A stretch of DNA of 64,000 bases from the NCBI GenBank assembly GCA_017307855.1, contig JAFKGD010000013.1:62001-126000 (forward strand). Reading direction: 5' to 3'. Shown here in pieces: positions 8,478 through 57,902 of the stretch. Position 1 is the first letter of the stretch. Each line of letters opens with the position of its first letter. Under the pieces are notes generated by a model that saw only the letters and a program-made list of their open reading frames with translations, made no database searches and had not been told where the DNA came from. This DNA is from Burkholderiales bacterium. GTDB lineage: Bacteria > Pseudomonadota > Gammaproteobacteria > Burkholderiales > Burkholderiaceae_C. A program made the translations under genes and the position numbers.

Positions 8478-8490
8478 GCGGGCCTTTTCC

Positions 8491-9306
8491 ATGACGCTGC
8501 GCTGGAACGCCGAGGCCCTGTGGGAGGCCATCGTGCCGGCGCTGCCGGGCTTCACCGTCGAGGTGCTGCCCGACATCGATTCCACCAATTCCGAACTCAT
8601 GCGCCGCGCGCGCGCGGGCCAGACCGAGCCGGTGCTGCTCGTGGCCGAGCGCCAGAGCGCCGGCCGTGGCCGTCTGGGCCGGGAATGGCACGGTGGCACG
8701 GCCGGGCTGGCGCAGCGCGCGCCCGAGGGCCGGCTGCCCGCGCTCATGTTCTCGCTGGGCCTGCCCGTGGCGGCGCCCGACTGGTCGGGCCTGTCGCTGG
8801 CCGTGGGCGTGGCCGTGGCCGAAAGCCTGCCCGCGGGCGTGGGCCTCAAGTGGCCCAACGACCTGTGGCTGGCCGGCGGCGCCGATCGCAAGCTGGCCGG
8901 CATCCTGATCGAAACTGTCTCCGGAGGGCCGCACCAGCCTCGTCAGGCCGTGATCGGGGTCGGCATCAACCTGCTGCCGCGCCAGGGCGACGGACTGCGC
9001 GCGCCGCCGGCGTCGCTGGACGAACTCTGGCCCGGCGTCGATGCGCCCGCGGCGCTGGCCCGCGTCGCACCCGCGCTGGTGGCGGCGGTGCAACTGTTCG
9101 AGCGCGAGGGCTTCGCGCCTTTCGCCGAGCGCTTTGCACGGCTGGACGTGCTGGCCGGGCGGGACGTGGTGCTCAGCGATGGCACGTCCGGCGTGGCGCA
9201 GGGCGTGGCGGCCGGCGGCGCGCTGCAGGTGCGCACCGACGCCGGCCTGCGCCGCATTGACAGCGCCGAAGTGAGCGTGCGCCCGGCAGCCACGCCGATT
9301 CCCTGA
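8491..9306 (+). CDS. birA: Biotin--[acetyl-CoA-carboxylase] ligase, without HTH domain
   Basis: A 271-residue biotin protein ligase. Visible are the IDSTNSELMRRA segment, the adenylate-forming GRGRLGREWHG loop, KWPNDLWLAG (with the catalytic Lys in KLAGILIE) and GVGINL, followed by a small C-terminal SH3-like domain. It attaches biotin to the AccB subunit of acetyl-CoA carboxylase. The N-terminal helix-turn-helix of E. coli BirA is missing, so this form cannot repress biotin genes. The ATG at 8491 is 13 bases after the SET stop; a longer ORF would run through the SET gene. In many relatives coaX follows birA; here a SPOR gene follows directly. Confidence 0.93.
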   Translation: MTLRWNAEALWEAIVPALPGFTVEVLPDIDSTNSELMRRARAGQTEPVLLVAERQSAGRGRLGREWHGGTAGLAQRAPEGRLPALMFSLGLPVAAPDWSGLSLAVGVAVAESLPAGVGLKWPNDLWLAGGADRKLAGILIETVSGGPHQPRQAVIGVGINLLPRQGDGLRAPPASLDELWPGVDAPAALARVAPALVAAVQLFEREGFAPFAERFARLDVLAGRDVVLSDGTSGVAQGVAAGGALQVRTDAGLRRIDSAEVSVRPAATPIP

Positions 9307-9328
9307 ACACCCGACCCCAGGACGCCCC

Positions 9329-9991
9329 ATGCTGCGCATCGCCTTCCTGCTGCTGATCCTCGCCAACGGTGTGTACTTCGCATGGCGCCAGGGCATGCTG
9401 CAGGAACTGGGCTTCGTGCCGCCGCAGCAATCCGAACCCGAGCGGATCGCACAGCAGGTCGGGCCGCAATCGCTGCGCATCCTGGCGCCGGCCGAGGCTG
9501 CCCGTCTGGAAGCCTCGCTGCGCAACGGCCAGCGCCCGGCCGAGTGCCTGCAGGCCGGCCTGTTCGACGACGCGCGCGCGAGCGCCTTGCGCAATGCGCT
9601 CGAATCCGGCTGGCCTGCGGGCAGCTGGACCCTGGCCGCCGCCAGCGAACCGGCGCGCTGGATGATCTACATGGGCCGCTATGCCGACAACGAGGCGCTG
9701 GGCCGCAAGAAGGCCGAGTTGCGCCAGCTCCGGATCCTCTACCAGACGCTGCCCAATCCGTCGCTCGAGCCCGGCCTGTCGCTGGGCAGCTTCGGTTCCC
9801 AGGAAGCCGCCGACGCGCGGCTGGCCGAACTGGCCCAGCGCGGCGTGCGCACCGCGCGGGTGATGCAGGAGCGCGCCGAGGTGCGCGGCCAGCAGTTGCG
9901 CCTGCCGGCCGTGGACGACGCGCTGCGCGCACGGCTCGACGAACTCAAGCCGATGCTGGCGGGCAAGACACTGGTGCCCTGCCGCGCCTGA
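9329..9991 (+). CDS. SPOR-domain membrane protein
   Basis: A 220-residue protein with one N-terminal membrane helix (LRIAFLLLILANGVYFAW) and a soluble part. The C-terminal half matches the SPOR fold: WMIYMGRYADNEALGRKKAELRQL, then GLSLGSFGSQEAADARLAELAQRGVRTARVM. SPOR domains bind denuded peptidoglycan at the division site; the helix would hold this protein in the inner membrane with the SPOR part in the periplasm. It lies 22 bases downstream of birA and is probably co-transcribed. The role in cell-envelope maintenance is inferred from the domain. Confidence 0.8.
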   Translation: MLRIAFLLLILANGVYFAWRQGMLQELGFVPPQQSEPERIAQQVGPQSLRILAPAEAARLEASLRNGQRPAECLQAGLFDDARASALRNALESGWPAGSWTLAAASEPARWMIYMGRYADNEALGRKKAELRQLRILYQTLPNPSLEPGLSLGSFGSQEAADARLAELAQRGVRTARVMQERAEVRGQQLRLPAVDDALRARLDELKPMLAGKTLVPCRA

Positions 9992-21498: not shown

Positions 21499-24285
21499 TT
21501 GAGTACATCGTCATCGAAGAAGCGCGGCCAGTTCTGGCGTGCGGACTGGTTCGTCGCCCTGCTGGTGGTGGTGGCCGTCATCGTCCTGCACTCGGGAACC
21601 GACTTCATCTCGACGCTCGAGCGGCGTTTCTACGACTTCGCCAGCACCAGCACCTCCCGTCAGCCCTCGGATCGCATTGCAGTCATCGCCATCGATGACC
21701 AGAGCATCGCCAACATCGGCCGCTGGCCCTGGCCGCGGGACGTGCATGCCCAGCTGATCGACCAGCTGGCGCAGGCCAGGGCCAAGACGATCGTGCACAG
21801 CACTTTCTTCTTCGAGCCGCAGACCGACCGCGGCCTGTCCTACATCCGCCGCATGAAGGAAGCGCTCGGCGCATCGACGGATGCTGCAGCCAACGAGCAG
21901 CTGGGCCGCCTGATTGCCGAGGCCGAGACCGCGCTCGACACGGATGCGAAGTTTGCCGCCAGCATCGAGCGCGCGGGCAACGTGCTGCTGCCGTCGTACT
22001 TCAATCTGGGCCTGCCGCAGGGCCGGCCCGATGCCGACCTGCCCGCCTATGCGCTCAAGAGCGCGCTCGACGACGACGCCGGCTACGGCATGTCGGCGCT
22101 GCGCGGCACGCAGCCGATCGAGATCCTGGGCACGGCCGCGGCGGGCATCGGCCACCTGAACCAGCTCAACGACGTCGACGGCGCCTTGCGCGATGAGCCA
22201 CTGCTGGTGAACTATTTCGGCAAGGCCGTGCCGTCGATGGCGCTGCTGGCTGCCGCGCGCAGCCTCAACCTGCGGCCCGAGGACATCAAGCTGCACCCCT
22301 CCGAATCGGTGCAACTGGGCCGCCTGGTGATTCCCACCGACGAAATCAGCCGCATGCTGCCGCAGTTCTACAAGGCGACCGGCGGCAAGCCGGCGTTCGC
22401 GGTCGATTCGTTCTACGACGTCATCAGCGGGAAGATTCCGGCCTCGAAGTACGCTGACAAGATCGTCATCATCGGCGCCACCGCCACGGGCGTGGGCGTG
22501 CAGTTCCCGGTGCCGGGCTATCCGAGCCTGTCGCCGGCCGAGACCATCGCGCACATCACCTCCAGCATCCTGAGCGAGCACTTCATCGTGCAGCCGCGCT
22601 GGGGCGTGTGGGCGGCGCTGGCGGCCTTCCTGCTGGTGGCGGCCTACCTGATCGCGCTGCTGCCGCGGGTGTCGGCCGGCGTGGGTGCGGCGGCCACGGC
22701 GGTGCTGTTCGTTGTGCTGGTGGGCTCTGAATTCGGTTTGCTTGCGGGTGCCTCCACCTGGTTGCAGCTGATCTTCCCGGCTGCGCTGCTGGTCATCGGC
22801 CACCTGGCGCTGACGACCAAGCGTTTCCTGGTCACCGAGGCGGGCAAGCTCAAATCGGACGAGGAGTCGGCCGAAACCAACCGAATGATGGGCCTGGCGC
22901 TGCAGGGCCAGGGCCAGCTCGACATGGCGTTCGACCGCTTCCGCCGCGTGCCCATGAACGATGCGGTGATGGACAACCTCTACAACCTCGCGCTCGACTT
23001 TGAGCGCAAGCGCCAGTTCAACAAGGCGCAGGCCGTGTACGAACACATGGCCACCTACAACAAGGGCTACAAGGACCTTCAGTCCAAGCTCAGCCGCGCC
23101 AAGAACCTGTCGGAGACGGTCATTCTGGGCGGCGGCGGGACGCACCCGGGCGGCACCATGCTGCTCGATGGCGGTGCGGTCGAGAAGCCCATGCTCGGCC
23201 GCTACCAGGTCGAGAAAGAACTCGGCAAGGGCGCCATGGGTGTGGTGTACCTGGGCAAGGACCCGAAGATCGGCCGCGTGGTGGCCATCAAGACGATGGC
23301 GTTGGCGCAGGAGTTCGATGGCGAGGAGCTGGACGATGCGCGTGAGCGCTTCTTCCGCGAGGCCGAGACGGCCGGCCGCCTGCAGCACCAGAACATCGTG
23401 ACGATCTTCGATGCGGGCGAGGAGCACGACCTGGCCTACATCGCGATGGAGTTCCTCAAGGGCCGCGACCTGGTCGACTTCTGCAAGGACGGCAACCTGC
23501 TGCCGGCGCCGCAGGTGCTCTCGATCGTGGCACGCGTAGCCGAGGCGCTGGCGTATGCGCACAAGCAGAGCGTGGTCCACCGCGACATCAAGCCGGCCAA
23601 CATCATGTACGAGCCGGACAGCGACACCGTCAAGGTGACCGATTTCGGCATCGCACGCATCACCGACTCGAGCAAGACCAAGACGGGCCTGGTGCTGGGC
23701 ACGCCCAGCTTCATGTCTCCCGAACAGATCGCGGGAAAGCGCGTCGATGGCCGCTCCGACCTGTATTCGCTGGGCGTGATGCTCTACCAGATGCTGGCCG
23801 GCGTGCTTCCCTTCCGCGGCGATTCGATGGCCGAGCTCATGTACAAGATCGCCAACGAGGAAGCGCCCGACATCCGCATCGCGCGCCCGGCCACTTCAGA
23901 GCGGCTGGCCAACATCGTGGCGCTGGCGCTGTCCAAGCGGCCCGAGACGCGCTATCAGACGGGCGATGAATTCGCGGCCGACCTGCGCGCCGCCATTGCC
24001 GAATTGGCCGGGGCCGCGCCTGCGGCGCCCGCCGAAGCCGCCCGTCCGCTGGCTGCCCCGGCGCCGTCGGCCGGTGACGACTTCCAGGCCACCGTGATCG
24101 GTGCCGCGGCTGTGACGGCCGCCACGCAGTTCGAGCAGACCGTGATCGGCGGCGCCCCCGCGCCGACGGCCGGAGCGGACAGTCCCCAGGCGCCCCACGA
24201 TGATGGCGCCGACAAAACGACCGCCCTGCGGCGCCCGGCCGCAGGCGGCGCATCGGGCTCCGGCAACCTTGACCTGGATCTCTGA
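21499..24285 (+). CDS. CHASE2-domain serine/threonine protein kinase
   Basis: A 928-residue membrane kinase. A helix at about 17-31 is followed by an extracytoplasmic CHASE2 sensor (about 35-360; motifs IAVIAIDDQSI, GRWPWPRD, KIVIIGAT), then three more helices (about 368-435) and a TPR-like helical stretch (470-525). The Hanks-type kinase at about 568-835 is complete: GKGAMGVVY, Lys598 (VAIK), HRDIKPAN with Asp696, DFG at 715-717 and SPEQ. The Ala/Pro-rich tail has repeated Thr motifs (ATVIG at 864, QTVIG at 880) and an acidic end. The start is a TTG preceded by an AGGGGCGG site. It heads a six-gene run with its phosphatase 13 bases away. Confidence 0.93.
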   Translation: MSTSSSKKRGQFWRADWFVALLVVVAVIVLHSGTDFISTLERRFYDFASTSTSRQPSDRIAVIAIDDQSIANIGRWPWPRDVHAQLIDQLAQARAKTIVHSTFFFEPQTDRGLSYIRRMKEALGASTDAAANEQLGRLIAEAETALDTDAKFAASIERAGNVLLPSYFNLGLPQGRPDADLPAYALKSALDDDAGYGMSALRGTQPIEILGTAAAGIGHLNQLNDVDGALRDEPLLVNYFGKAVPSMALLAAARSLNLRPEDIKLHPSESVQLGRLVIPTDEISRMLPQFYKATGGKPAFAVDSFYDVISGKIPASKYADKIVIIGATATGVGVQFPVPGYPSLSPAETIAHITSSILSEHFIVQPRWGVWAALAAFLLVAAYLIALLPRVSAGVGAAATAVLFVVLVGSEFGLLAGASTWLQLIFPAALLVIGHLALTTKRFLVTEAGKLKSDEESAETNRMMGLALQGQGQLDMAFDRFRRVPMNDAVMDNLYNLALDFERKRQFNKAQAVYEHMATYNKGYKDLQSKLSRAKNLSETVILGGGGTHPGGTMLLDGGAVEKPMLGRYQVEKELGKGAMGVVYLGKDPKIGRVVAIKTMALAQEFDGEELDDARERFFREAETAGRLQHQNIVTIFDAGEEHDLAYIAMEFLKGRDLVDFCKDGNLLPAPQVLSIVARVAEALAYAHKQSVVHRDIKPANIMYEPDSDTVKVTDFGIARITDSSKTKTGLVLGTPSFMSPEQIAGKRVDGRSDLYSLGVMLYQMLAGVLPFRGDSMAELMYKIANEEAPDIRIARPATSERLANIVALALSKRPETRYQTGDEFAADLRAAIAELAGAAPAAPAEAARPLAAPAPSAGDDFQATVIGAAAVTAATQFEQTVIGGAPAPTAGADSPQAPHDDGADKTTALRRPAAGGASGSGNLDLDL

Positions 24286-24298
24286 GGGTCCGCAACTG

Positions 24299-25084
24299 AT
24301 GATCTACGAGTTCTGCACGAATACGGACCCCGGGCTGGCGCGCGGCAACAACGAGGATTCGGTCACGTTCGACGATGCCACGCGGCTGGGTATCCTGGCC
24401 GATGGCATGGGGGGCTACAACGCCGGCGAGATCGCCAGCGGCATGGCCACGACCTTCATCAAGTCCGAACTCTCACGCTGGCTCAGCGAGGCGGGCCGCA
24501 ATGCCAGCGCCCGCGAAGTGCGTCGGGCAATGGAGATCTGTGTCGACAACGCCAACCGCTCGATCTTCAATGCCGCCAACTCCAACCCGCAGTACACGGG
24601 CATGGGCACCACGCTGGTGGTGGGCGTGTTCCAGGACGACCGGTTGCTGGTCGGCCACATTGGCGATTCGCGCTGCTATCGGCTGCGCGGTGAGGAATTC
24701 ACCCAGATCACGCGTGACCACTCGCTGCTGCAGGAGCAGATCGATGCAGGGTTGATCACACCCGAACAGGCGGCCACGTCGCTGAACAAGAATCTGGTCA
24801 CCCGCGCGCTCGGCGTCGAGGAGTCGGTGCCGCTGGAGGTCAACGAACACAAGGTGGAGGTGGGCGACCTGTACCTGATGTGTTCTGATGGACTGTCTGA
24901 CATGGTGGACGACGCCAGCCTTGCGGCGCTGCTTCAGAGCAACGTTTCGTTGCACGACCTGGCCGTGCAGCTCATAGCCAGCGCCAATGCCAACGGTGGC
25001 CGCGATAATATTTCAGTACTTTTGGCGCGCGCCGAGCCCGGTTCCGCCAAACGCGGGCTGATTTCCCGTTTGCTGGGAAAATAA
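24299..25084 (+). CDS. PP2C-family Ser/Thr protein phosphatase
   Basis: A 261-residue phosphatase of the bacterial PP2C/Stp type. The metal-binding motifs appear in order: RGNNEDS, GILADGMGGYNAGE, GTTLVVGVF, GHIGDSRCYRL, TRDHSL, LMCSDGLSDMVDD and GGRDNISVLLAR. The ATG of MIYEFCTN is chosen; the open frame further upstream overlaps the kinase coding end. It is expected to remove phosphates placed by the CHASE2 kinase immediately upstream, a common kinase/phosphatase pairing. No membrane segment, so cytoplasmic. Confidence 0.95.
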   Translation: MIYEFCTNTDPGLARGNNEDSVTFDDATRLGILADGMGGYNAGEIASGMATTFIKSELSRWLSEAGRNASAREVRRAMEICVDNANRSIFNAANSNPQYTGMGTTLVVGVFQDDRLLVGHIGDSRCYRLRGEEFTQITRDHSLLQEQIDAGLITPEQAATSLNKNLVTRALGVEESVPLEVNEHKVEVGDLYLMCSDGLSDMVDDASLAALLQSNVSLHDLAVQLIASANANGGRDNISVLLARAEPGSAKRGLISRLLGK

Positions 25085-25133
25085 CGCCTGCCGCATTTTT
25101 GTAACGAATTGCTTTATTAGACAGGAGTCGATC

Positions 25134-25805
25134 ATGCCGAAGATGATCGTTTCGATCGACGGGGTCGTCATCAAGGAAGTCCAGCTCACCAAGGACCGCA
25201 CGACGCTGGGCCGCCGGCCCTACAACGACATCGTGATCGACAACCTGGCGGTGAGCGGCGAGCACGCCGTGCTGCAGATGAATGGCAACGACGTTCATCT
25301 GGAAGACCTCAATAGCACCAACGGCACCTACGTCAACGGCAAAGCGGTCAAGAAGCAGGCCCTGCAGAACAACGACACCGTAGAGATCGGCAAGTACAAG
25401 ATCAAGTTCGTGAGCGACGCCCAAGGCGCCAATTACGAGAAGACCATGGTGGTGAAGGCGGGTGCACTGCCGCCGCAGGCTGCGCCTGCCACGAGCCCGG
25501 CTCCTGTGGCTGCGGCGCCCGCGCTGGCGTCCGACGTCGCCGGCCCGAGCGCCTCGATCAAGGTGCTCTCGGGCGCTGCTGCCGGCCGCGAGGTCGCGCT
25601 GGTGAAGGTGGTCACCACCATCGGCAAGCCAGGCGTGGCCGTGGCGGCGATCACCAAGCGGCCGCAGGGCTTCGTCGTGGCGCACGTCGAGGGCGAAAGC
25701 CGTGCCCTGCTCAACGGCGCTGCCGTGAGCGGCGAGCCCCAGGTGCTCAAGAACGGCGACCTGCTCGAACTCGCCGGCACGCAGATGCAGTTCGTGCAGG
25801 CCTGA
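25134..25805 (+). CDS. Tandem FHA-domain protein
   Basis: A 223-residue protein. The first FHA domain (about 1-95) has all phosphothreonine-binding residues: Gly26-Arg27 in TLGRRPYNDIVID, Ser41 and His44 in VSGEHAVL, and STNGTYVNG at 61-69. An Ala/Pro linker follows (110-138). The second part (about 141-221) has the FHA strand pattern (TTIGKPGVAV, LLNGAAVSG, LKNGDLLEL) but lacks the Arg, Ser and His, so it is degenerate. AGGAG before the ATG sets the start. As a phosphopeptide reader next to a kinase and phosphatase it is the likely adaptor of the pathway. Confidence 0.9.
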   Translation: MPKMIVSIDGVVIKEVQLTKDRTTLGRRPYNDIVIDNLAVSGEHAVLQMNGNDVHLEDLNSTNGTYVNGKAVKKQALQNNDTVEIGKYKIKFVSDAQGANYEKTMVVKAGALPPQAAPATSPAPVAAAPALASDVAGPSASIKVLSGAAAGREVALVKVVTTIGKPGVAVAAITKRPQGFVVAHVEGESRALLNGAAVSGEPQVLKNGDLLELAGTQMQFVQA

Positions 25806-25821
25806 GAAGCCACGACCCGAC

Positions 25822-28071
25822 ATGGGGTTGCTGCTGCGCCACTGGCCCCGAATCGCGGTCACGCTGATCCCGCTGCTCTTCGCGCTGCTGCACGCGGTGG
25901 GCGTGCTGCGGCTGGATGTCGTCCAGCGCCTGGACGACATCATCTACGACGCCCGCCTGCGCGCGACCATGCCACGCACGCTCGACGAGCGCATAGTCAT
26001 CGTCGACATCGACGAGAAGAGTCTCGGTGAAGTGGGCCGCTGGCCCTGGAGCCGAAACCGGATGGCCGAGCTCACGAACGAGATGTTCGGTCGCCAGCAG
26101 GCGGCCCTGGTGGGCTTCGACGTCGTGTTTGCCGAGCCTGACGACAGCTCGGGTCTCAAGCAACTGCGCGAACTCGTGACGGGCGAACTGCGCGGCCAGA
26201 CGGGCTTCGCTGAACGTGTCACGCAGCTTCAGGCCTCGCTCGACTACGACGCGTTGTTCGCGCAATCGCTCGCGGGCAAGCCGGTGGTGCTGGGCTACTA
26301 CTTCACCAGCGACCGCGACGGGCGCACCTCAGGGGTGCTGCCGCGGCCGGTGATGGACCGGCAACTGCTGCAGGGCCGCCCGATCCGCTTCACCAGCTGG
26401 AATGGCTATGGTTCCAACATCGAGCAGATCGCCCGTGCGGCGCCCGTGGCCGGCTTCTTCAATTCGATCACCGATGCCGATGGCGCGGTGCGTTCGATTC
26501 CCCTGATCGTCGAGCACAAGGGCGAGTTCTACGAATCGATGGCGCTGTCGATGTTCCGCATGCTGGCGGGCATGCCGCAGGTGGCACCGGGGTTTCCGCA
26601 GGAGCGCTTCATCGCGCGCGGCTATCAGGGACTCGAGAGCATCCAGCTCGTGCAGGGTGGCAAGTCATTGGCAATTCCGGTGGACGACCGCGTGGCCACG
26701 CTGGTGCCATACCGTGGGCCTGGCGGGGCCGACGGCGGGTCGTTCCGCTACATCCCGGCCTCCGATCTGCTCAACGGCCGTCTGCCGGCCGGCAGCCTGA
26801 AAGACAAGATCGTGCTGGTGGGCACCACGGCGCCCGGCCTGCTCGATCTGCGCGTGACGCCCGTGGGCGAGACCTACCCCGGCGTGGAGACGCATGCCAA
26901 CGTGATCGCCGGCTTGCTGGACGGCAAGGTGCTGGTCAAGCCCGACTACGCCGTCGGCTACGAGGTCTTCATGCTCGTGCTCTCGGGCCTGCTGCTGGCG
27001 GTGGCGTTGCCACTGCTGTCGGCGCTGCGTGCCGTGGCGCTGAGCGCCGTGGTGCTGGTCACCCTGGTGGGAGTGAACTTCTGGCTTTATGCTGGCGCCG
27101 GCCTGGTCCTGCCTCTGGGCTCGGCGCTGTTGATGGGGCTGACGGCCTTCGCGCTCAACATGAGCTACGGGTACTTCGTGGAAAGCCGCTCCAAGCGCGA
27201 ACTGGCGAACCTGTTCGGAACCTACGTGCCGCCCGAGCTGGTGGACGAGATGGTGAAGGATCCGGACAGCTATTCCATGCAGGCCACCAACAAGGAATTG
27301 ACGGTGATGTTCTGCGACATGCGCGGCTTCACCAAGATGTCCGAGACGATGGAGCCCACACAGCTGCAGGGCCTGCTCAACGACGTGTTCAGCCGCCTGA
27401 CCGACATCATCCGAGGCAACCGCGGCACCATCGACAAGTACATGGGGGACTGCGTGATGGCCTTCTGGGGCGCGCCGGTGGACACCGCCGAGCATGCGCA
27501 CCTCGCGGTCAAGAGCGCGATGGAAATGTCCAACGCCGTGCGCCGCATCAACGAAGACCATCGTGCGCGCGGCCTGCCCGAAATCGGCATCGGCATCGGA
27601 CTGAACACGGGGACCATGTGCGTGGGCGACATGGGCTCGGACATCCGCCGCAGCTACACGGTGATCGGCGACGCCGTCAACCTGGGCTCGCGGCTGGAGG
27701 GGCTGTCCAAGTCGTACGGCGTGGACATCGTGGTTGCCGAATCGACCCGCCGACAGGCCACGGACTTCGCCTGGCAGGAACTTGACCGCGTGCGCGTGAA
27801 GGGCAAGGAGCAGGCCGTGGCCATCTTCTGGCCGGTCACGCCGCTCAATCGACTCGAGGACAGCACCAGTGCCGAGCTCAAGCTCTGGGCCGAATTCCTC
27901 AAGGCCTACCGTGCGCAGGACTGGGACCGTTGCGACATGCACATGCTGAACCTGCAGCGCGCGAATGCCAAAAAGTACCTTTACCTGCTTTATTCCGAAC
28001 GGGTAGCCTCGATGCGCATGCTGCCGTTCGACCCCTCGTGGGACGGCGCGACGAATTTCGAAACCAAGTGA
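25822..28071 (+). CDS. CHASE2-domain class III adenylate/guanylate cyclase
   Basis: A 749-residue membrane cyclase. A short N-terminal helix, a CHASE2 sensor (about 30-375; IVIVDIDEKSLGEVGRWPW, KIVLVGTTAPGL) and three helices (380-450) precede the catalytic domain (about 490-670). The catalytic residues are present: metal Asp499 (FCDMRGF) and Asp543 (DKYMGD), Lys539 and Thr613 at the two base-specifying positions (YTVIGDAVN), Asn620 and Arg624 (SRLE). Lys plus Thr fits ATP rather than GTP, so adenylate cyclase is likely. Its CHASE2 domain resembles that of the upstream kinase, so both may sense the same cue. A phosphodiesterase-like gene follows after 7 bases. Confidence 0.92.
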   Translation: MGLLLRHWPRIAVTLIPLLFALLHAVGVLRLDVVQRLDDIIYDARLRATMPRTLDERIVIVDIDEKSLGEVGRWPWSRNRMAELTNEMFGRQQAALVGFDVVFAEPDDSSGLKQLRELVTGELRGQTGFAERVTQLQASLDYDALFAQSLAGKPVVLGYYFTSDRDGRTSGVLPRPVMDRQLLQGRPIRFTSWNGYGSNIEQIARAAPVAGFFNSITDADGAVRSIPLIVEHKGEFYESMALSMFRMLAGMPQVAPGFPQERFIARGYQGLESIQLVQGGKSLAIPVDDRVATLVPYRGPGGADGGSFRYIPASDLLNGRLPAGSLKDKIVLVGTTAPGLLDLRVTPVGETYPGVETHANVIAGLLDGKVLVKPDYAVGYEVFMLVLSGLLLAVALPLLSALRAVALSAVVLVTLVGVNFWLYAGAGLVLPLGSALLMGLTAFALNMSYGYFVESRSKRELANLFGTYVPPELVDEMVKDPDSYSMQATNKELTVMFCDMRGFTKMSETMEPTQLQGLLNDVFSRLTDIIRGNRGTIDKYMGDCVMAFWGAPVDTAEHAHLAVKSAMEMSNAVRRINEDHRARGLPEIGIGIGLNTGTMCVGDMGSDIRRSYTVIGDAVNLGSRLEGLSKSYGVDIVVAESTRRQATDFAWQELDRVRVKGKEQAVAIFWPVTPLNRLEDSTSAELKLWAEFLKAYRAQDWDRCDMHMLNLQRANAKKYLYLLYSERVASMRMLPFDPSWDGATNFETK

Positions 28072-28078
28072 GGCCGGG

Positions 28079-28870
28079 GTGAAAGTACGCGTACTGGGGT
28101 GTTCGGGGGCGATCGCCAGGGATTGCCGGACCACCTCGTTCCTGATCGACAGCGACGTGCTGGTGGATGCCGGCACCGGCGTGGGAGACCTGTCGCTGGC
28201 CGAGATGGCGGCGGTGGACCACGTGCTGCTCACGCACTCCCACCTCGATCACATCGCCGCCCTGCCCCTCATGGTGGACGCCGTGGCCGGCCAGCGCACC
28301 CGGCCGCTGCAGGTGCACGCCCTGCCCGGCACGGTGAAGGCCTTGCGCGACCACGTCTTCAACAACGTGATCTGGCCCGACTTCAGCCGCATCCCCACGC
28401 CCGATGCGCCCTTCATCACCTTCCATGAGATCGAGGTCGGCCAGACGCTGCAGATCACCGGCAAGACCATCGAGGTGCTGCCCGCCGTACATACTGTGCC
28501 CGCCGTGGGCTATGCGATCACGGCCGGCTCGGGTTGCTGGGTGTTCACCGGCGACACCGAGCGCAACCCGGCTTTCTGGACGCGCGTGAACGAACTCAAC
28601 GTGGCCGCGCTGGTCATCGAGACGGCGTTCAGCAACCGCGAGAGGGAGCTGGCGCAGAAGAGCCTGCACCTGTCTCCCGCTTCGCTGGCCGACGAGTTGC
28701 GCAATATCGCCAAGGGGCGGCAGTACCCCATCTACATCACGCACACCAAGCCGGCCGAAACCGATCTCATCATGTCCGAGATCCAGGGGCTGGACCAGAC
28801 GCGGACCTTCGGCCTGAACTTCATGCACGACATCCGCTGGCTGCGCGCCGGCCAGGAATTCGAGCTGTGA
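28079..28870 (+). CDS. MBL-fold hydrolase, class II cyclic-nucleotide phosphodiesterase-like
   Basis: A 263-residue metallo-beta-lactamase-fold protein. The metal site is HSHLDH at 53-58 with His138 ([11 protein letters not shown]), Asp159 (FTGDTERN) and His222 (ITHTKP). The segment [21 protein letters not shown] resembles the matching part of class II cAMP phosphodiesterases (yeast PDE1, CpdP). The start is a GTG seven bases after the cyclase gene. I infer that it degrades the cyclic nucleotide made by its neighbour. The PROSITE class II pattern is only partly met (A where G/S is expected), so other phosphodiester substrates remain possible. Confidence 0.8.
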
Positions 28871-28907
28871 TCCGCCGCGCCGCCGCGCGACACACCAAGG
28901 CACGCCC

Positions 28908-31304
28908 ATGAGTACCGAGCAGGACTTCTACGACTCCCAGATCCTGCCGCCCGAGAAGCGCGGCGTCACCTTTGCCGCCCTGTTCTTCAAGCAGCTGCAG
29001 ACCGTCAGCACGCGTATCCACGCCACCGAGAACATCGACCAGCTGATGCTGGATGCGAGCGAGGACATCTGCCGCCTCTTCAATGCGGACCGGCTCACGC
29101 TCTATGCCGTCACCGAGGACGGCGGCGCCATCATCTCGAAGGTCAAGACCGGACTGAACACGAGCCGTGCGCTGAAGCTGCCCATCAGCGCGCAGAGCCT
29201 GGCGGGCTATGTGGCCTTCAGCCGCCAGCTGCTCAACGTGGCCGACGTCTACGACGAAGCCGCACTCAAGAAGATCCATCCGACGCTCACCTTCCTCAAG
29301 GAAGTGGACAGGCGCTCGGGCTACCGCACCAAGCAGATGCTGGTGGCGCCCATCATCGAAGGCAACACGCTGCATGGCGTGCTGCAGGTCATCAACAACA
29401 AGAGCGACCTGCCTTTCGGCGAACTCGAGGTCGAGGGCGCGCAGCAGTTGTGCAAGACCCTGGCCACCGCCATCCGCCAGCGACTCTCGCGGCCCGCCGA
29501 AGCGCCCGCAGGGAGCGGCCGCGCCACCAAGTACGACGGCCTGGTCGCCGATGGCGTGATCTCGGCCGACGAGCTGCAGGCCGCGATGCTGCGCGCGCGC
29601 GAGAACTCGCTGGGCGTGGAGCAGGTGCTGATGGCGGACTACAACCTGAAGCCGGCGCAGATTGGCCCGTCGCTTTCGCGCTTCTTCGGCGTGCCTTACG
29701 AGCCGATGACCAGCACGCGTATCCGCTCCGAGGGCCTGCACGGCCAGCTCAAACGCGAGTTCGTCGAGGAACAGCGCTGGATCCCGCTGGAAGAGTCGCC
29801 CGAGGGGCTGGTGGTGATGTGCCTGGATCCGGAGGCCACCCGCGGCTCGCGCATCGTGCCGCAGGTGTTCCCGCGCCTGTCGAAGTTCGCCTACCGCGTG
29901 ACCACGCAGTACGAGTTCGACGAGACGGTGAACCAGTTGCTGGGCGGCGGCGAGGCCGGCAGTTCGATCGACCAGATGCTGGCCGATCTGAGCGATGGCC
30001 CGCTCGACGACGACTCGGGCAACGACAACTCGCTCGAATCGGCGGCGGCCGACAACGAGCTGGTCAAGTTCGTCAACAAGGTGATCGTCGACGCGTACAA
30101 CCAGCGCGTCTCGGACATCCACATCGAGCCGCTGCCCGGCAAGGCCAAGACCGGCATCCGCTTCCGCATCGATGGCTCGCTCGTGCCCTACGTGGAGGTG
30201 CCGGCGCACTTCCGCCAGGCCATGGTCACGCGCCTGAAGATCATGTGCGACCTCGACATCTCCGAGAAGCGCAGGCCGCAGGACGGCAAGATCAAGTTCA
30301 AGAAGTTCGGTCCGCTCGACATTGAGCTGCGCGTGGCCACCATCCCGTCGGCTGGCGGCGTGGAAGACGTGGTGATGCGGATCCTCGCGGCTGGTGAGCC
30401 GATTCCGCTGGACAAGCTCGGCCTCACGCCGCACAACAAGGAGCGGCTCGAATCCACCGTGAGCAAGCCCTACGGCCTGTTCTATGTGTGCGGCCCCACG
30501 GGCTCAGGCAAGACCACCACGCTGCACTCCATCCTCAAGTTCCTCAACACGCCCGACACCAAGATCTGGACGGCCGAGGACCCGGTGGAAATCACGCAGA
30601 AGGGCCTGCGCCAGGTGCAGATCAACAAGAAGGCCGGCATCGACTTCGCTCTGGTGATGCGCGCCTTCCTGCGGGCCGATCCGGACATCATCATGGTGGG
30701 CGAATCGCGCGACAAGGAAACCGTGTCGATGGGCGTGGAAGCCTCGCTGACAGGTCACCTGGTGTTCTCCACGCTGCACACCAACTCTGCCCCCGAATCC
30801 ATCACCCGCCTGCTCGACATGGGCATGGACCCCTTCAACTTCGCCGATGCCCTGCTGGGCATCCTGGCGCAGCGCCTGGCCAAGAAGCTGTGCGACTGCA
30901 AGGAGGCCTACACGCCAGACGGCGAGGAAATCAAGACTTTCCTGGCCGAATACGCCGAGGAACTGCGGCATTCCAGCGCCTGGAAGGCCGACTATCCTGG
31001 TGAAGCGCGCAAGTTGTACGACAGCTGGGTCAAGACCTATGGCGAAGGCGGCAAACTGAAGTTCTACCGCTCCCGTGGCTGCGAGAAGTGCAACAACACC
31101 GGCTACAAGGGCCGGCTGGGCCTGCACGAACTGCTGATCGCCGACGACGCCGTCAAGAAACTCATCCAGGAACGCGCCCGCGTGGCTGAAATCTTCGCCC
31201 AGTCCGTCGAAAGCGGGATGCGCACGCTGAAGATGGACGGGATGGAGAAGATCATGATGGGCCTGACCGACCTCAAGCAGGTGCGGTCGGTGTGCATCAA
31301 GTAG
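28908..31304 (+). CDS. GAF-domain GspE/PilB-type secretion or pilus ATPase
   Basis: A 798-residue hexameric-motor ATPase with an unusual N-terminus. Residues about 25-190 are a GAF domain with an NK...F...E motif (Asn164, Lys165, Phe170, Glu174). An MshEN/T2SSE-N-like domain (about 205-345) and an acidic linker follow. The ATPase core has Walker A GPTGSGKT (529-536), an Asp box around TAEDPVE, a Walker B region DPDIIMVGESRD (a Ser replaces the usual Ile) and a His box GHLVFSTLHTN. A tetracysteine zinc motif (CDC and CEKC) lies near the C-terminus. PilB/GspE proteins power pilus extension or type II secretion; two pilin genes follow, favouring pili. The GAF domain implies small-molecule control. 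Confidence 0.93.
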   Translation: MSTEQDFYDSQILPPEKRGVTFAALFFKQLQTVSTRIHATENIDQLMLDASEDICRLFNADRLTLYAVTEDGGAIISKVKTGLNTSRALKLPISAQSLAGYVAFSRQLLNVADVYDEAALKKIHPTLTFLKEVDRRSGYRTKQMLVAPIIEGNTLHGVLQVINNKSDLPFGELEVEGAQQLCKTLATAIRQRLSRPAEAPAGSGRATKYDGLVADGVISADELQAAMLRARENSLGVEQVLMADYNLKPAQIGPSLSRFFGVPYEPMTSTRIRSEGLHGQLKREFVEEQRWIPLEESPEGLVVMCLDPEATRGSRIVPQVFPRLSKFAYRVTTQYEFDETVNQLLGGGEAGSSIDQMLADLSDGPLDDDSGNDNSLESAAADNELVKFVNKVIVDAYNQRVSDIHIEPLPGKAKTGIRFRIDGSLVPYVEVPAHFRQAMVTRLKIMCDLDISEKRRPQDGKIKFKKFGPLDIELRVATIPSAGGVEDVVMRILAAGEPIPLDKLGLTPHNKERLESTVSKPYGLFYVCGPTGSGKTTTLHSILKFLNTPDTKIWTAEDPVEITQKGLRQVQINKKAGIDFALVMRAFLRADPDIIMVGESRDKETVSMGVEASLTGHLVFSTLHTNSAPESITRLLDMGMDPFNFADALLGILAQRLAKKLCDCKEAYTPDGEEIKTFLAEYAEELRHSSAWKADYPGEARKLYDSWVKTYGEGGKLKFYRSRGCEKCNNTGYKGRLGLHELLIADDAVKKLIQERARVAEIFAQSVESGMRTLKMDGMEKIMMGLTDLKQVRSVCIK

Positions 31305-31402: not shown

Positions 31403-31837
31403 GTGACCTTGCATCGTTCCCAGCAGGGGTTCACCCTGATCGAGCTGCTGATCGTCGTGTTCGTCGTCGGCGTTCTGTCGGCCGTGGCTCTGCCCGTATA
31501 TCGCGACTACACAGTACGGGCCAAGGTTTCCGAGGTCGTGTTGGCGGCATCCGCATTGCGCAGCGACGTGGCCGAGTACGCGCATGCCAATGGCACCATG
31601 CCCGGCGACAGTGAGCTCTCCGGGGTTGTGCGTGGCTCCCGCTGGGTCGCCAGCGTCATCTACTCGCGTGATCCCTCCCTCAGCACGGCAGGCGTAGTTA
31701 CAGCGACAGCACAGGGTGATCCGCATTTTGAGGGAGCCTACGTCGCTATGCGTGGATCGTTGACCCCGTCCGGGCAGGTCGATTGGCGTTGTGAGGGCAC
31801 CATTGCGGCCAAGTATCTTCCGGCGGCCTGTCGCTGA
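31403..31837 (+). CDS. Type IV pilin, paralogue 1
   Basis: A 144-residue prepilin. A short leader (MTLHRSQQG) ends at the prepilin peptidase site [10 protein letters not shown] with the conserved Glu at +5, followed by the hydrophobic N-terminal helix. The C-terminal half has two Cys residues ([16 protein letters not shown]) that would form the pilin disulfide loop. The start is a GTG. It is clearly paralogous to the next gene, sharing [23 protein letters not shown]-type residues, but diverges in the globular domain. It may be a minor or alternative pilin. It has its own sigma-54-like promoter. Confidence 0.9.
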
Positions 31838-31971: not shown

Positions 31972-31987
31972 TGGCACAGATTCTGCT
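31972..31987 (+). promoter_or_regulatory. Candidate sigma-54 promoter of major pilin
   Basis: TGGCACAGATTCTGCT matches the sigma-54 -24/-12 consensus: TGGCAC, then GC exactly 10 bases after GG. It is 38 bases upstream of the second pilin ATG, the right distance for a short leader. RpoN-dependent pilA transcription is well known in Pseudomonas. Confidence 0.75.
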
Positions 31988-32025: not shown

Positions 32026-32454
32026 ATGAAGCGTTCTCTCCAAAAGGGTTTCACCCTTATCGAACTGATGATTGTGGTCGCCATCATCGGTATTCTGGCT
32101 GCCGTCGCCCTGCCCGCGTATCAGGACTACACGGTTCGCGCGAAGGTGTCCGAAGTCATTCTGGCCGCGTCGGCACTGCGTACTGACGTGTCGGAGTTCG
32201 CGCAGTCAAATGGTCAGATGCCTGCCACTAACGGCCTGTCGATTTCCACCAGCGCAACGCAGTGGGTCGGTGGTGTTGGTTACGCTCAAGGCGCGGCGAG
32301 CAACATCGGTATCATCACGGCAACTGCAACGAAGGATCCGAAAATCTCGGGTGCCAACATCACCATGACGGGCACGATGAGCGACACTGGTCAAGTGACT
32401 TGGGTGTGCAGTGGCAGCATCGAAGCCAAGTACCGCCCCTCGAGCTGCAAGTAA
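32026..32454 (+). CDS. pilA: Type IV pilin, probable major subunit
   Basis: A 142-residue prepilin. The leader MKRSLQKG is cleaved before [22 protein letters not shown], the canonical class IVa N-terminus with Glu at +5. The globular domain ends with a disulfide loop ([17 protein letters not shown]). An AACAGGAG ribosome-binding site, a sigma-54-like promoter and an intrinsic terminator right after the gene make a strongly expressed single-gene unit, as expected for a major pilin. Ser residues beside the last Cys could be a glycosylation site, given the two oligosaccharyltransferase-like genes that follow. Confidence 0.95.
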
Positions 32455-32515: not shown

Positions 32516-34222
32516 ATGTGGCGTGGAACGCCGTCGGGCGGCGTTTTGCCCTCAACTTCTTTGGTCCTGCTGGCGGCAATTGCGGCCGGCGCATGGCTAC
32601 AGCCAAATCACTGGCTACCGTGGGTTTCCTTTCATGCAGAAGTCTGGATGGCAGTCGTGCTATGCGGCGTCTCGCTCTTCGTGCTTGCACGCACACAGGG
32701 GGCGTTGACATGGCATGGGTTGGCGGTGCTGGGGTTGTTGCTTGCCGCCGTGCCCCTGGTTCAGCTGGCAGGCGGTCTGGTACTTTCGAAAGGCCTTGCC
32801 TGGATCAATAGCGCCTATCTGCTGGGATTGTTTGCCGCGCTCATGATCGGTGCTCGCTGGGAATCAGCAGCGCCAGGTGAGCCGGTGCTGTTCGTGCTGC
32901 TGGCAGCATTCATCGCGTCATTCCTGTCGGTGGGCCTGCAACTGCATCAGTGGATGCAGCTTGATGGATTGCCGTTCTTGTCCATGGGTGGCGGGCCTTC
33001 CCGGCCTTCGGCGAACATAGGACAAGCCAACCATTTGGCCACGCTGCATCTTTGGGGGCTCCTCGCTGTTACATGGGCATGGCTGCGCGGCTACTTTGGG
33101 CCAACAGGCTTTTTCGCCTTGGCGGCTTTCCTTTTGCTGGGTATCGCTCTGACGGAGTCGCGGGCCGCGTTGCTCAATGGAGTTCTGTTGTGCGGAGTGA
33201 CGTGGCTTTATCGCCCACGTTGGCCGTCACGACGAGTAGTGTGGGCGGCCATGGGATTGGTGTTTGCCCTGCTGGTGCTGATGTTGACGCTACCCTCGTT
33301 AGGGGCTGTTATCCATTCCTTCGGCGAATCAGGCACGGCAAGACTGGCCAATCCCGCGAGTGCCAACATCCGAATCACGGCCTATACCATGCTGGTCGAC
33401 GCCGCCTTACGCCAACCCTGGTTTGGCTATGGCTGGGGACAGACTATGCTGGGGCAGTTCGCGGTCGCGCTTGACCACCCTTCGATTAATGGTGTGCTGG
33501 GAAACGCTCACAACCTGCTTATCGATCTCGTTCTGTGGCTAGGCATCCCGGGCGGACTTGCGGTAGCCATGACGTTCGCGGCCTGGCTGCTGCGATGCTT
33601 GCGCGTCCTCCGGGCCCCGGAGAACGTCGTCGTGCTGATGGCGGTGTTGGTTCTCGCCGTTCACAGCATGGTGGAGTTTCCGCTGCAGTATGGGTACTTC
33701 CTCTGGCCAGCTGGATTGCTGGTTGGCGCTCTCAATGTGCGCGCAAACTTTCCAGCAAAAACTTGGGGGCACCGTGCTCTGTTGGCAGGAATCTGTCTGG
33801 CGTGCGGAGCATTCACGCTCGCCGCCATACGAGACTACGTAGTCGCCGAGGCCAGCTTCCGCTCCTGGCGTTTCCACGTCGCGCGGATCGGCAGCGTTGC
33901 ACCCGAGCCAATCCCTTCGCTTGCGGTGCTGCCCCAGATTGAAAGCGTATTGCGCGTACCGCGTGCCGCCATCCGAAAAGGCATGACCGCCGAGGAGATC
34001 AACGACTACACCGAGGCCATGCTGGCGCTGCCCAGTCTGGCGAACATCTTCTTCCTGTCACAGGCCCTGGCCATGAACGGACGAGTTGAAGAGGCACGCC
34101 TTTGGCAGTTGCGGATGGAAGGTATCTTCAGCGCCGAACACCTCGCATTTGCCAAAGCTGACTGGCGACGCCAAGCATTGAGTACGCCGGAGATGGCAAA
34201 CCTGCCATGGGCGCATCCCTGA
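32516..34222 (+). CDS. PglL-like O-oligosaccharyltransferase (Wzy/O-antigen ligase superfamily), copy 1
   Basis: A 568-residue membrane protein with about 11-12 helices. It has the large periplasmic-loop motifs of the Wzy_C/PglL family: NIGQANHLATLHLW, ESRAALLNG, GYGWGQTM, NAHNLLIDLVLWLGIP and HSMVEFPLQYGYFLWPAGL. A soluble C-terminal segment of about 110 residues follows. PglL/PilO enzymes transfer lipid-linked glycans to pilin Ser/Thr; the position right after pilA supports this. GGAGG before the ATG sets the start. Base composition is visibly more AT-rich than in flanking housekeeping genes. Confidence 0.85.
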   Translation: MWRGTPSGGVLPSTSLVLLAAIAAGAWLQPNHWLPWVSFHAEVWMAVVLCGVSLFVLARTQGALTWHGLAVLGLLLAAVPLVQLAGGLVLSKGLAWINSAYLLGLFAALMIGARWESAAPGEPVLFVLLAAFIASFLSVGLQLHQWMQLDGLPFLSMGGGPSRPSANIGQANHLATLHLWGLLAVTWAWLRGYFGPTGFFALAAFLLLGIALTESRAALLNGVLLCGVTWLYRPRWPSRRVVWAAMGLVFALLVLMLTLPSLGAVIHSFGESGTARLANPASANIRITAYTMLVDAALRQPWFGYGWGQTMLGQFAVALDHPSINGVLGNAHNLLIDLVLWLGIPGGLAVAMTFAAWLLRCLRVLRAPENVVVLMAVLVLAVHSMVEFPLQYGYFLWPAGLLVGALNVRANFPAKTWGHRALLAGICLACGAFTLAAIRDYVVAEASFRSWRFHVARIGSVAPEPIPSLAVLPQIESVLRVPRAAIRKGMTAEEINDYTEAMLALPSLANIFFLSQALAMNGRVEEARLWQLRMEGIFSAEHLAFAKADWRRQALSTPEMANLPWAHP

Positions 34223-35829
34223 GTGTCCGCTCGGCTGCGGTCGTCGGCCTGACGGCCTGTTCCTGGGTAATTGGGTGGCGCGATGGACCGTCGCCTGTAG
34301 TGCTTCAGACGCTGACTGCTCTGGGTTGCGCAGGTTGCCTCGTGATGATGGGCGCGCCGCGCTCGTGGCATTGGAGCGCCGCAGTTATCGGTATCACTCT
34401 TGCTATGGTCGCCATCACGTTGCGTACGTACAGCAATACTGCCTCGTCGCTTGGCGTGGTAGCCGCGGTGTTCATCATGACGACGGCGGCTTCCGGTAGC
34501 GCCGGGGCGCGCGATCATCATTGGGGATCTAGCGCGCTCGCGATGGGATGGGTACTCGCGGCAGTGTTGAATGCGCTCATTGGTCACGCTCAAGCCTACG
34601 GAATAAACGGTCCGGAGTGGAGTTGGATTTCGGAGTCGACGCGACGCATCGCGACAGGAAACCTGCGCCAACCCAATCAGTTCGCGACATTGATGAATGT
34701 TGGTCTGGTTGCAGCGGTATTCGTAACGCCGAAAGTTCGGACACCGCGTGCGCTTTTAACGGTTGCATGTGTACTTCTGGTGACGAGTGCCAACGCCTTG
34801 TCGTCCTCGCGTATTGGGGCGCTCGGTCTTCTGCTGGCATGTGCGGCCTGCTGGCGTTGGACAACCCCTACTCAAATGGTTGCGCGGTTGCACCTACTCC
34901 TCGCAGCTGCCACCTACGCCACCGTGAGCATCGGAATCTACTTGTACGGCGCGATATCCGGAGCCGGACGCGGTGTGCTGGGCCGGCTTGAGGAGCATGC
35001 GCCCGAATGCCACAGCCGCCTCACCCTCTGGAGCAACGTCCTGGACCTCATCATCCAACGATCATGGACAGGTTGGGGTTGGGGCGAACTTGACTACGCC
35101 CACTTTGCCACCCGCTTCGAGGGCACGCGCTTCTGCGCCATCCTCGACAACGCGCACAACCTGCCGTTGCATCTGGCCGTCGAACTGGGTATACCCGCCG
35201 CAGTGGCGTTGATAGGTGCGATGGCATTTGTCGTGATCCGCGCCCGCCCGTGGCGCGAGACCGAACCGGCGCGACAGCTAGCGTGGCTGGTCATCGCTTT
35301 GGTGATGCTTCACAGCATGGTGGAGTACCCATTGTGGTACGGACCGTTCCAGCTCGCCATCGGTCTTGCTGCGGGAATGCTGCTGGCGCGGCCCGCAACA
35401 GCTTGCGTGACACAAGCTGCCTGGCCGGCGCATGCGCAGCGGCTGATCGGCACGCTGCTGATGGGTGCGTCCGTCTACGCTGCTTGGGACTACTGGCGCC
35501 TGAGTCAGATCTACCTGCCCAAGGAATTGCGCGCCGATGTCTACCGAGAAGACACGCTTAACAAAATTTCCTCGTCTTGGCTGTTCGCTGACCAGGTGCG
35601 GTTCGCGCGGCTTACCATCACCCCGCTCACACCTGCCAACGCCGCCTTCATGCATGAGCTGGCCGAGAAAACCCTGCACTTCTCACCCGAGCCCGCTGTG
35701 ATCGAGAAATACATCAACAGCGCCCGGCTTCTAGGCCGCGACGCCGATGCCGCTTGGGCGGAGCAACGCTATGCCGCCGCCTTCCCGGACCAGCACGCGC
35801 GCTGGAAGGCACTCAGCGCGGCGCGCTGA
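34207..35829 (+). CDS. PglL-like O-oligosaccharyltransferase, copy 2
   Basis: A 540-residue multi-pass protein with the same architecture as the preceding gene: [55 protein letters not shown] and [18 protein letters not shown]. The [13 protein letters not shown] block is the closest match to the PglL_A group. The start overlaps the end of copy 1 by 16 bases, so the two are coupled. Sequence divergence between the copies is large, arguing for old duplication or separate acquisition. AT-richer than neighbours. The 3' end overlaps convergent moaC by 17 bases. Confidence 0.83.
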
Positions 35830-53722: not shown

Positions 53723-53798
53723 TAACAAATCTTCACCCGAGGCCCCGGAACGGGTGCCTGTGCCGCCGGTCATAATTCCCGCCACATCCGTCGTTGAA

Positions 53799-57898: not shown

Positions 57899-57902
<4 letters not shown>
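53799..57902 (+). CDS. yhdP: YhdP-family AsmA-like envelope protein
   Basis: A 1367-residue protein with one N-terminal membrane helix (WLLTFLVAAWLVFALALAVLHGW) and a long periplasmic beta-rich repeat region (DUF3971, then an AsmA_2-like C-terminal domain with GKGQMEGQVAWIGSPLSPDYPSMNGQFTVNIEDGQFLKADPG). YhdP, TamB and YdbH are known to move phospholipids to the outer membrane. The ATG at 53799 is picked because the helix starts soon after; earlier ATGs overlap divergent glnE. Its stop overlaps the next start (ATGA). Confidence 0.93.

Follow-up and report, generated by a model that had tools for sequence, protein, structure and literature searches.

Six genes ahead of the type IV pilins

The window analysed here is a 64,000-nucleotide stretch of the genome of a Burkholderiales bacterium (assembly GCA_017307855.1, contig JAFKGD010000013.1, positions 62,001 to 126,000 of the forward strand), and our subject is a predicted operon of six open reading frames (ORFs), all on the + strand, that lies ahead of two type IV pilin genes. 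The six genes encode, in order, a CHASE2 Ser/Thr kinase (KIN; 21499..24285; Pfam CHASE2, E = 3e-50; Pkinase, 2e-54), a PP2C phosphatase of the Stp1/IreP type (24293..25084), a tandem FHA protein (25134..25805; FHA, 4e-23), a CHASE2 class III adenylate cyclase (CYC; 25822..28071; CHASE2, 1.5e-55; Guanylate_cyc, 3e-25), a metallo-β-lactamase (MBL)-fold enzyme resembling class II cyclic-nucleotide phosphodiesterases (28079..28870) and a GAF-fused PilB/GspE-like ATPase (MOT, hereafter the motor; 28908..31304; T2SSE, 5e-112). Every Pfam domain assigned (CHASE2 with Pkinase; PP2C; FHA; CHASE2 with Guanylate_cyc; Lactamase_B_2 and PDEase_II; GAF, MshEN and T2SSE) exceeds its curated cut-off, the MshEN domain of the motor only marginally (24.9 vs 23.1). 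With the PP2C start placed at the ATG at 24293, consecutive genes are separated by 7, 49, 16, 7 and 37 bases, and a terminator scan that returned 6 sites, against 7.5 in shuffled sequences, placed none on the + strand at any junction between the genes. The ORFs and domain assignments confirm a preliminary description of the same DNA, in which the six genes share one strand, stand 7-49 bases apart and carry these domains.

The first pilin gene follows the motor after 98 bases (31403..31837, + strand; Pilin PF00114, 5.5e-16) and the second lies at 32026..32454 (+ strand; 5.3e-20); no other PF00114 match occurs anywhere in the genome. A same-strand pilin also stands downstream at 84 of 165 well-covered loci in relatives, defined as those in which the MBL gene is flanked by at least 7.6 kb upstream and 4.5 kb downstream. 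This gene served as bait for every relative locus gathered. Of 300 genomes surveyed in the order, 174 contain a match to it at E<=1e-20, and the 225 loci comprise a first set of 59, a group of 80 from named relatives (GTDB genomes, the best 80 of 319 relatives) and a second set of 86, the 59 and 86 together making up 145 of the MBL places among the matches listed, with three contig-end places left out. Gene presence was taken from tblastn matches at E<=1e-5 with the window proteins as queries, a procedure that may miss divergent copies. By construction, a gene found on the opposite flank of the MBL gene was counted as absent; among the 165 loci such cases amounted to 5 same-strand matches, which stand at least 4.7 kb away, and 2 opposite-strand motor matches, all of them 37-48% identical.

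Conservation of gene order among relatives, which the preliminary description had put forward as a check, is present. The complete six-gene set occurs at 67 of the 165 well-covered loci, and the order KIN, PP2C, FHA, CYC upstream of the MBL gene is constant wherever at least two of these genes occur. Reduced forms include PP2C-FHA-MBL-MOT (22 loci), KIN-PP2C-FHA-CYC-MBL (11), CYC-MBL (10) and MBL-MOT without other module genes (8), and further module genes are found at all but the 10 loci where the MBL gene stands alone. The six genes are conserved together, but not as a fixed set: KIN and CYC are often missing, and relatives add genes for cNMP-binding/rhodanese and GAF-HD proteins. KIN and CYC tend to be kept or missing together, since the 126 loci with both PP2C and FHA divide into 78 with KIN and CYC, 29 with neither, 11 with KIN only and 8 with CYC only (p 1e-12, kinship ignored). 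Loci with five or six of the genes occur, for instance, in records named as Ramlibacter, Polaromonas, Hydrogenophaga, Acidovorax, Gallionella and Sulfuritalea. The six-gene module is conserved, and it is apparently undescribed: no description of this gene combination was listed in searches of the open-access literature.

Kinase, phosphatase and FHA protein

The three upstream proteins retain the residues expected of a phosphothreonine circuit. In the kinase, the HRD Asp is invariant across 113 sequences, window included, and the catalytic Lys and the DFG Asp are each kept in 112 of them; the phosphatase exceeds the cut-off of the Stp1/IreP equivalog model NF033484 (244.6 vs 230 bits), and Arg27, Ser41, His44 and Asn63 of the first FHA domain (FHA1), which we take to be its phosphothreonine-binding residues, are kept as R/S/H/N in 156 of 156 relative loci. 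Domains and conserved residues thus support the writer, eraser and reader of phosphothreonine that had been suggested. Pfam detects a single FHA domain in the third protein, and the tandem arrangement claimed for it stands on an hhalign profile comparison of FHA1 with the second half of the protein (96% probability, E 3e-9), which identifies a divergent FHA2. The assignment rests on this comparison because a search with the FHA2 profile was weak, returning GarA-type FHA chains only at E 0.67-0.97 with unrelated chains ranked above them. FHA2 (residues 138-223) bears a strongly conserved signature, GKPG...VA...R..G...HVEG...NG, without the usual phosphothreonine-binding pattern, and this signature is retained even at loci lacking both kinase and motor. 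The genome encodes two CHASE2 proteins besides KIN and CYC (G000:C17:225726-226595 and G000:C12:66747-67649), and both match histidine kinase models, so that CHASE2 receptors serve three output types in one cell.

The linker between FHA1 and FHA2 contains a motif, YEKTMVVK (25434..25457, + strand), whose Thr104 is a predicted phospho-acceptor and FHA1 ligand. Its consensus in relatives, FEKTM[VI][LI]R, is like the self-bound phospho-peptides of GarA and OdhI, for which the pertinent passage of PMC6733907 gives hydrophobic residues at -3, +2 and +3 and Glu at -2. Across 122 motif-bearing loci from kinase-bearing genomes, position -3 is F/Y in 117, -2 is E/D in 121, +2 is mostly V/I and +3 is L/I/M/F/V in all; the search pattern itself constrains -2, -1, +2 and +3, leaving only -3 as free evidence. 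A related but different pattern is almost confined to the FHA protein: it was matched by 122 of 179 FHA proteins and 9 of 113 kinases, and by none of 167 PP2C, 146 CYC, 226 MBL and 144 MOT proteins. The kinase has a motif of its own in the juxtamembrane region, SETVILG (23110..23130, + strand), in which Thr540 is a predicted autophosphorylation or FHA docking site; the form [ML]SETV[IM]LG stands immediately before the kinase domain at 93 of 112 kinase-bearing relative loci.

The linker motif is associated with the presence of the kinase. The motif expression was composed after the first locus set had been seen and before the second was gathered, and the cut-off for a kinase elsewhere in the genome (E<=1e-70) was set after the genome kinase data of the first set and before those of the second. 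Excluded from the counts were the window, loci without FHA, FHA readings shorter than 190 aa, kinase-less loci with less than 7.6 kb upstream, and L081, L121 and L122, whose kinase status is ambiguous, so that 156 of the 225 loci were used. The motif occurs in 122 of 127 genomes with a kinase at the locus or elsewhere, compared with 9 of 29 without (Fisher 5e-14), and in the second set alone in 50 of 55 compared with 1 of 7 (p 5e-5). A tree built from MBL, PP2C, FHA1 and cyclase columns implies 13 losses of the motif, 9 of them on branches without the kinase; such branches make up 19% of the branch length (p 1.3e-4), or 30% if only kinases at the locus are considered (p 0.004). A strict rule by which loss of the kinase entails loss of the motif was dropped, given the kinase-less genomes that retain it and the result of the second set for locus kinases (p 0.064).

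All five kinase-bearing loci that fail the FHA pattern fail the kinase pattern as well, compared with 14 of the 106 that have the FHA pattern (p 9e-5), both motifs being present at the remaining 92. At L267 and L269 the FHA threonine is still there with altered flanks, and L267 keeps the kinase threonine too, so that lacking the motif means, at these two loci, failing the pattern only. Among the 29 kinase-less genomes, 7 of the 9 that have the motor keep the FHA motif, compared with 2 of the 20 that lack it (p 7e-4; exploratory, kinship ignored), a hint that the phosphorylated FHA protein and the motor belong together. Phosphorylation of both Thr104 and Thr540 by the kinase would be in keeping with these patterns.

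Predicted cyclic-nucleotide enzymes and the pilus-type motor

Seven catalytic positions of the cyclase, which we take to be the class III metal-binding Asp pair, the Lys/Thr substrate residues and the Asn/Arg, are kept in 141 of 142 sequences longer than 500 aa (window included). The cyclase gene lies upstream of the MBL gene at 107 of the 165 well-covered loci, within 400 bases by domain match at 104 of these. Two variants were seen in passing: at L048 (strand -, ~8200-9700), in a relative of the same family, the CHASE2 half of the cyclase is kept, its catalytic residues are lost and there is no motor, and at L061, L100 and L212 a cyclase-domain gene, 37-39% identical to that of the window, stands ~4.7 kb downstream of the MBL copy. 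The MBL enzyme scores above the PDEase_II cut-off (46.4 vs 23.7 bits), but over only positions 83-175 of the 340 in the profile, and Lactamase_B_2 scores higher. Against the PDB its profile finds yeast PDE1 first (4ojv, E 7e-14), with which it shares the segment VLxxHVFN..IWPD, ahead of RNase Z (8e-11). Asn95, Trp99, Pro100 and the tested metal-ligand His and Asp residues are kept in 225 or 226 of 226 sequences. A single-sequence AlphaFold model of the enzyme was poor (predicted local distance difference test, pLDDT, 39) and was not used. Insofar as the closest solved relative indicates function, the MBL enzyme may hydrolyse cyclic AMP (cAMP).

The motor keeps its Walker A Lys and four Cys in all 139 aligned sequences. 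It falls below the cut-off of the PilB equivalog TIGR02538 (462.8 vs 675.65), and below that of TfpB too, whereas elsewhere in the same genome there are a canonical PilB and a TfpB, each scoring above the cut-off of its family; the motor is therefore an additional PilB-like ATPase. The proposed link to a pilus is supported by the two pilin genes directly downstream. Binding of cyclic di-GMP (c-di-GMP) by the MshEN domain was considered and rejected, since the RLG positions of RLGxx...Q, which we take to be its c-di-GMP motif, hold Lys in 116, Tyr in 111 and Asp in 121 of the 139 sequences. In a sample of 369 genomes of the class, 13 match the motor, namely the genome of the window itself, one from the same order and 11 others at only 29-31% identity.

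The GAF domain of the motor (29037..29474, + strand) offers a candidate sensor. Its profile matches the tandem GAF of Anabaena CyaB2 best (1ykd, 8e-36 over two domains; single domain 2.7e-18), followed by the GAF-HD-GYP protein 4mcw (single domain 1.3e-15) and then by phosphodiesterases PDE5, PDE10, PDE2 and PDE6. The section of PMC4411481 on the second CyaB2 GAF domain (GAFb) names Arg291, Thr293, Asp356, Asn359 and Ile308 as cAMP contacts, and describes an NKFDE motif as conserved in most characterised GAF domains that bind cyclic nucleotides. Once these numbers were matched to the PDB chain by adding 57, whereupon all five letters agreed with PMC4411481, the contacts mapped onto Arg62, Thr64, Asp134, Ser137 and Val79 of the motor. 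Arg62 is kept in 139, Thr64 in 137 and Asp134 in 139 of 139 sequences; the Asn359 position is T/S in all 139 and the Ile308 position V/I in 130. An AlphaFold model of the domain (pLDDT 88.5) resembles many GAF types and supports the fold only. Of the motor columns, 5 of 286 are conserved with a nearby cyclase and less so without one, and 11 of 293 behave in this way with respect to the kinase; none is a GAF contact.

At a number of related loci, further genes are present. A relative of a cNMP_binding-rhodanese protein (38-100% identity; Pfam was run on L158:10776-11864 only) lies downstream of the MBL gene at 35 of the 225 loci, in 31 cases between MBL and motor, and all 35 genes encode the cassette FGE.AL...R.A[ST], which we take to be the phosphate-binding cassette of cAMP receptors. 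This gene occurs at 25 of 118 loci with the cyclase and at 3 of 63 without it (p 0.004, kinship ignored), and lends independent support to a cyclic-nucleotide role for the operon. A GAF-HD (HD_5) gene follows the motor within 1.6 kb at 94 of 123 loci with enough sequence (e.g. L182:13324-14955). Neither gene is present at the locus of the window. Of the cyclic-nucleotide roles that had been sketched earlier, the maker is supported by the catalytic residues, while the possible breaker and the possible reader are strengthened by the likeness to PDE1 and by the conserved contacts of the CyaB2-like GAF, respectively. At the level of domains, the reading of both arms is well supported.

The pilins are followed by genes for a PglL/Wzy-type ligase (32516..34222, + strand; Wzy_C_2, 3e-19; Wzy_C, 2e-15) and, in tandem with it, a second ligase of Wzy_C/PglL type (34207-35829), which suggests pilin glycosylation. 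Upstream of the second pilin, a sigma-54-like -24/-12 site, TGGCACAGATTCTGCT, lies at 31972..31987 (+ strand); the pattern has 2 matches in the window compared with 0.31 expected, and at least 2 were found in 5 of 100 shuffles. A sigma-70 scan gave 1 match against 1.5 expected and is given no weight. The kinase gene is preceded, after a 256-base gap, by a YjbE-type membrane gene, before which lie sucC- and sucD-like genes. No type VI secretion system (T6SS) genes were found among the neighbours scanned (sucC/sucD-like, YjbE-type, pilins and Wzy/PglL ligases), a selection of the ORFs in the window. Farther away, a YhdP homologue (PF13116) covering nearly the full profile was seen at 53712-57902.

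A proposed two-input circuit and its alternatives

Taken together, these observations may be read as a conserved control module that receives two inputs and is linked to the type IV pilus. In one arm, the CHASE2 kinase would sense a cue from outside and phosphorylate its own Thr540 and Thr104 of the FHA linker; FHA1 would bind one or both phosphothreonines, PP2C would reset the switch and FHA2 would probably serve as a constant partner-binding surface. In the other arm, the CHASE2 cyclase would make cAMP and the class II phosphodiesterase-like MBL enzyme would remove it, while binding of cAMP to the GAF domain would gate the extra PilB-like ATPase, such that the cell switches pilus subunit assembly. 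Both arms would then meet at pilus assembly. We place the mechanism as a whole just short of evenly balanced. A more specific version is doubtful: that the pilus motor is directly gated by cAMP through the CyaB2-like GAF domain, with its output set jointly with the kinase/FHA phospho-switch, and that the arrangement already existed early in the Burkholderiales, as the named relatives would imply, and was pared down many times.

Several observations weigh against this mechanism. In the phosphothreonine arm, 9 of the 29 kinase-less genomes retain the FHA Thr motif, and the second set considered with locus kinases only gives 39 of 44 compared with 12 of 18, which is not significant (p 0.064). The phosphothreonine-binding residues of FHA1 are moreover intact in 29 of 29 kinase-less genomes, which means that another FHA1 ligand exists. 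The motor, described earlier as the point at which the operon ends, is present in the window but is not an obligatory end point: among 53 genomes picked because an MBL locus lacks some module part, its GAF-plus-middle region (E<=1e-15) occurs in 17 (in 16 of these beside the MBL copy, the exception being G206) and not in 36. Other outputs must therefore exist for the module parts that these genomes keep; among the genomes without the region are Variovorax, Hydrogenophaga and Acidovorax genomes whose loci retain PP2C, FHA and MBL. In the cyclic-nucleotide arm, the GAF contacts are no less conserved at the 42 motor loci that have no cyclase nearby than at the 89 that do, so that the GAF ligand need not come from CYC. 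The GAF domain of 4mcw has the same Arg and Asp, with an E-value near that of CyaB2, and Foldseek ranks it first; together with the conservation at cyclase-less loci, this means that the GAF signature is no proof of cAMP. The NKFDE motif is only partly kept, with N and F in 139 of 139 sequences, K in 86 and the acidic pair off the expected spacing.

Four alternatives bear on different steps. It is somewhat unlikely, in our view, that two separate circuits merely share the operon, with the phosphorylated FHA protein acting elsewhere through FHA2 and only the cyclic-nucleotide arm touching the motor. Such a division would fit the persistence of PP2C, FHA and MBL in genomes without the motor, the loci at which the CYC-MBL or MBL-MOT pair stands alone and the GKPG...HVEG signature that FHA2 has for itself, but not the tracking of the motor by the FHA Thr motif in kinase-less genomes, nor the joint keeping and missing of KIN and CYC. 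That the FHA protein is a scaffold, oligomerising through a phosphothreonine bound in trans as T6SS Fha1 may do, instead of a self-closing switch like OdhI or GarA, is a possibility we take seriously while holding it well below even. The Thr motif comes after FHA1 in the sequence, whereas OdhI and GarA have theirs in the N-terminal tail, and the similar motif of the kinase could dock FHA1; T6SS Fha1, for its part, is called a core scaffold phosphorylated at Thr362 in the passage of PMC3953482 that deals with it. Against this, the linker motif has the features of a self-bound peptide, although these are equally suited to binding in trans, and the data do not separate the two.

The remaining alternatives concern ligand and substrate. 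It is possible, with about the same weight as the scaffold, that the motor GAF binds another ligand or is purely structural. The standing of 4mcw as second profile match and first Foldseek match, the VIA-align list for the model, which mixes many GAF types with two PtsP GAFs at its top, the Thr/Ser at the Asn359 position, the mostly Val at the Ile308 position and the incomplete NKFDE motif would all accord with this. The best profile match is nonetheless the cAMP-binding CyaB2, by single domain ahead of 4mcw, most of the entries that follow are GAFs of cyclic-nucleotide phosphodiesterases, and Arg, Thr and Asp are near-invariant. Action of the MBL enzyme on a phosphodiester other than cAMP appears quite improbable: RNase Z and other MBL nucleases do match its profile (E 8e-11 and weaker) and the gene is kept without an upstream cyclase at 58 of 165 loci, but PDE1 is the best match, with HVFN..IWPD aligned, and the upstream cyclase is present at the larger share of these loci.

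Comparison with known systems places the proposed two-input module among familiar elements. As in the T6SS PpkA-PppA-Fha pathway, a Ser/Thr kinase, a PP2C phosphatase and an FHA protein are encoded together; that pathway controls an envelope machine, and a Thr of its FHA protein is a kinase substrate, as stated in the part of PMC3953482 that covers it. Here, by contrast, the setting is a type IV pilus locus, the kinase is a CHASE2 receptor, the FHA domains are in tandem and a cyclase/phosphodiesterase/GAF arm is included in the operon. With the OdhI/GarA switch, in which kinase and phosphatase act on an FHA Thr peptide according to the relevant portions of PMC2784874 and PMC6733907, the linker shares the Thr peptide features (hydrophobic -3, +2 and +3; Glu at -2). 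The peptide is in the N-terminal tail in those proteins, whereas here it follows FHA1 and lies between two FHA domains, and the FHA protein scores far below the OdhI model NF041660 (64.4 vs a cut-off of 200). By these sequence comparisons and the neighbours scanned, the phosphothreonine arm is a member of neither the T6SS pathway nor the OdhI/GarA family, though it resembles both.

In the other arm, the Arg, Thr and Asp adenine contacts are shared with CyaB2 and the GAF phosphodiesterases, but the motor carries a single GAF, with a partial NKFDE motif, on a pilus-type ATPase, whereas those GAFs are fused to a cyclase or a phosphodiesterase. The MBL fold, HxHxDH and HVFN..IWPD are common to yeast PDE1 and the window enzyme, which differs in being shorter, bacterial, encoded beside a cyclase gene and, on inspection, without an evident signal peptide. 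T2SSE, Walker A and the four conserved Cys are likewise common to the motor and the PilB/TfpB ATPases, the N-terminal GAF setting the motor apart. Three PilB paralogues are noted in the Ramlibacter tataouinensis genome in the portion of PMC3164672 concerned with them, which makes no link to this cluster. Overall, the comparison suggests a variant of known elements, in which a threonine-phosphorylation switch like that of the T6SS and a cyclic-nucleotide circuit come together at a locus of the type IV pilus.

Among pilus extension ATPases, the known cases of direct control by a ligand mostly involve c-di-GMP. Should the motor be gated by a GAF that binds cAMP, this nucleotide would affect the apparatus directly as well as by way of transcription, and the T6SS-like phospho-switch would gain a pilus counterpart. 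Thr104 of the FHA protein, Thr540 of the kinase and Arg62 of the motor are predictions that can be resolved at single residues. Given the spread of the MBL gene through more than half of the genomes surveyed in the order, with module genes nearby, the module may matter for how many environmental bacteria behave at surfaces.

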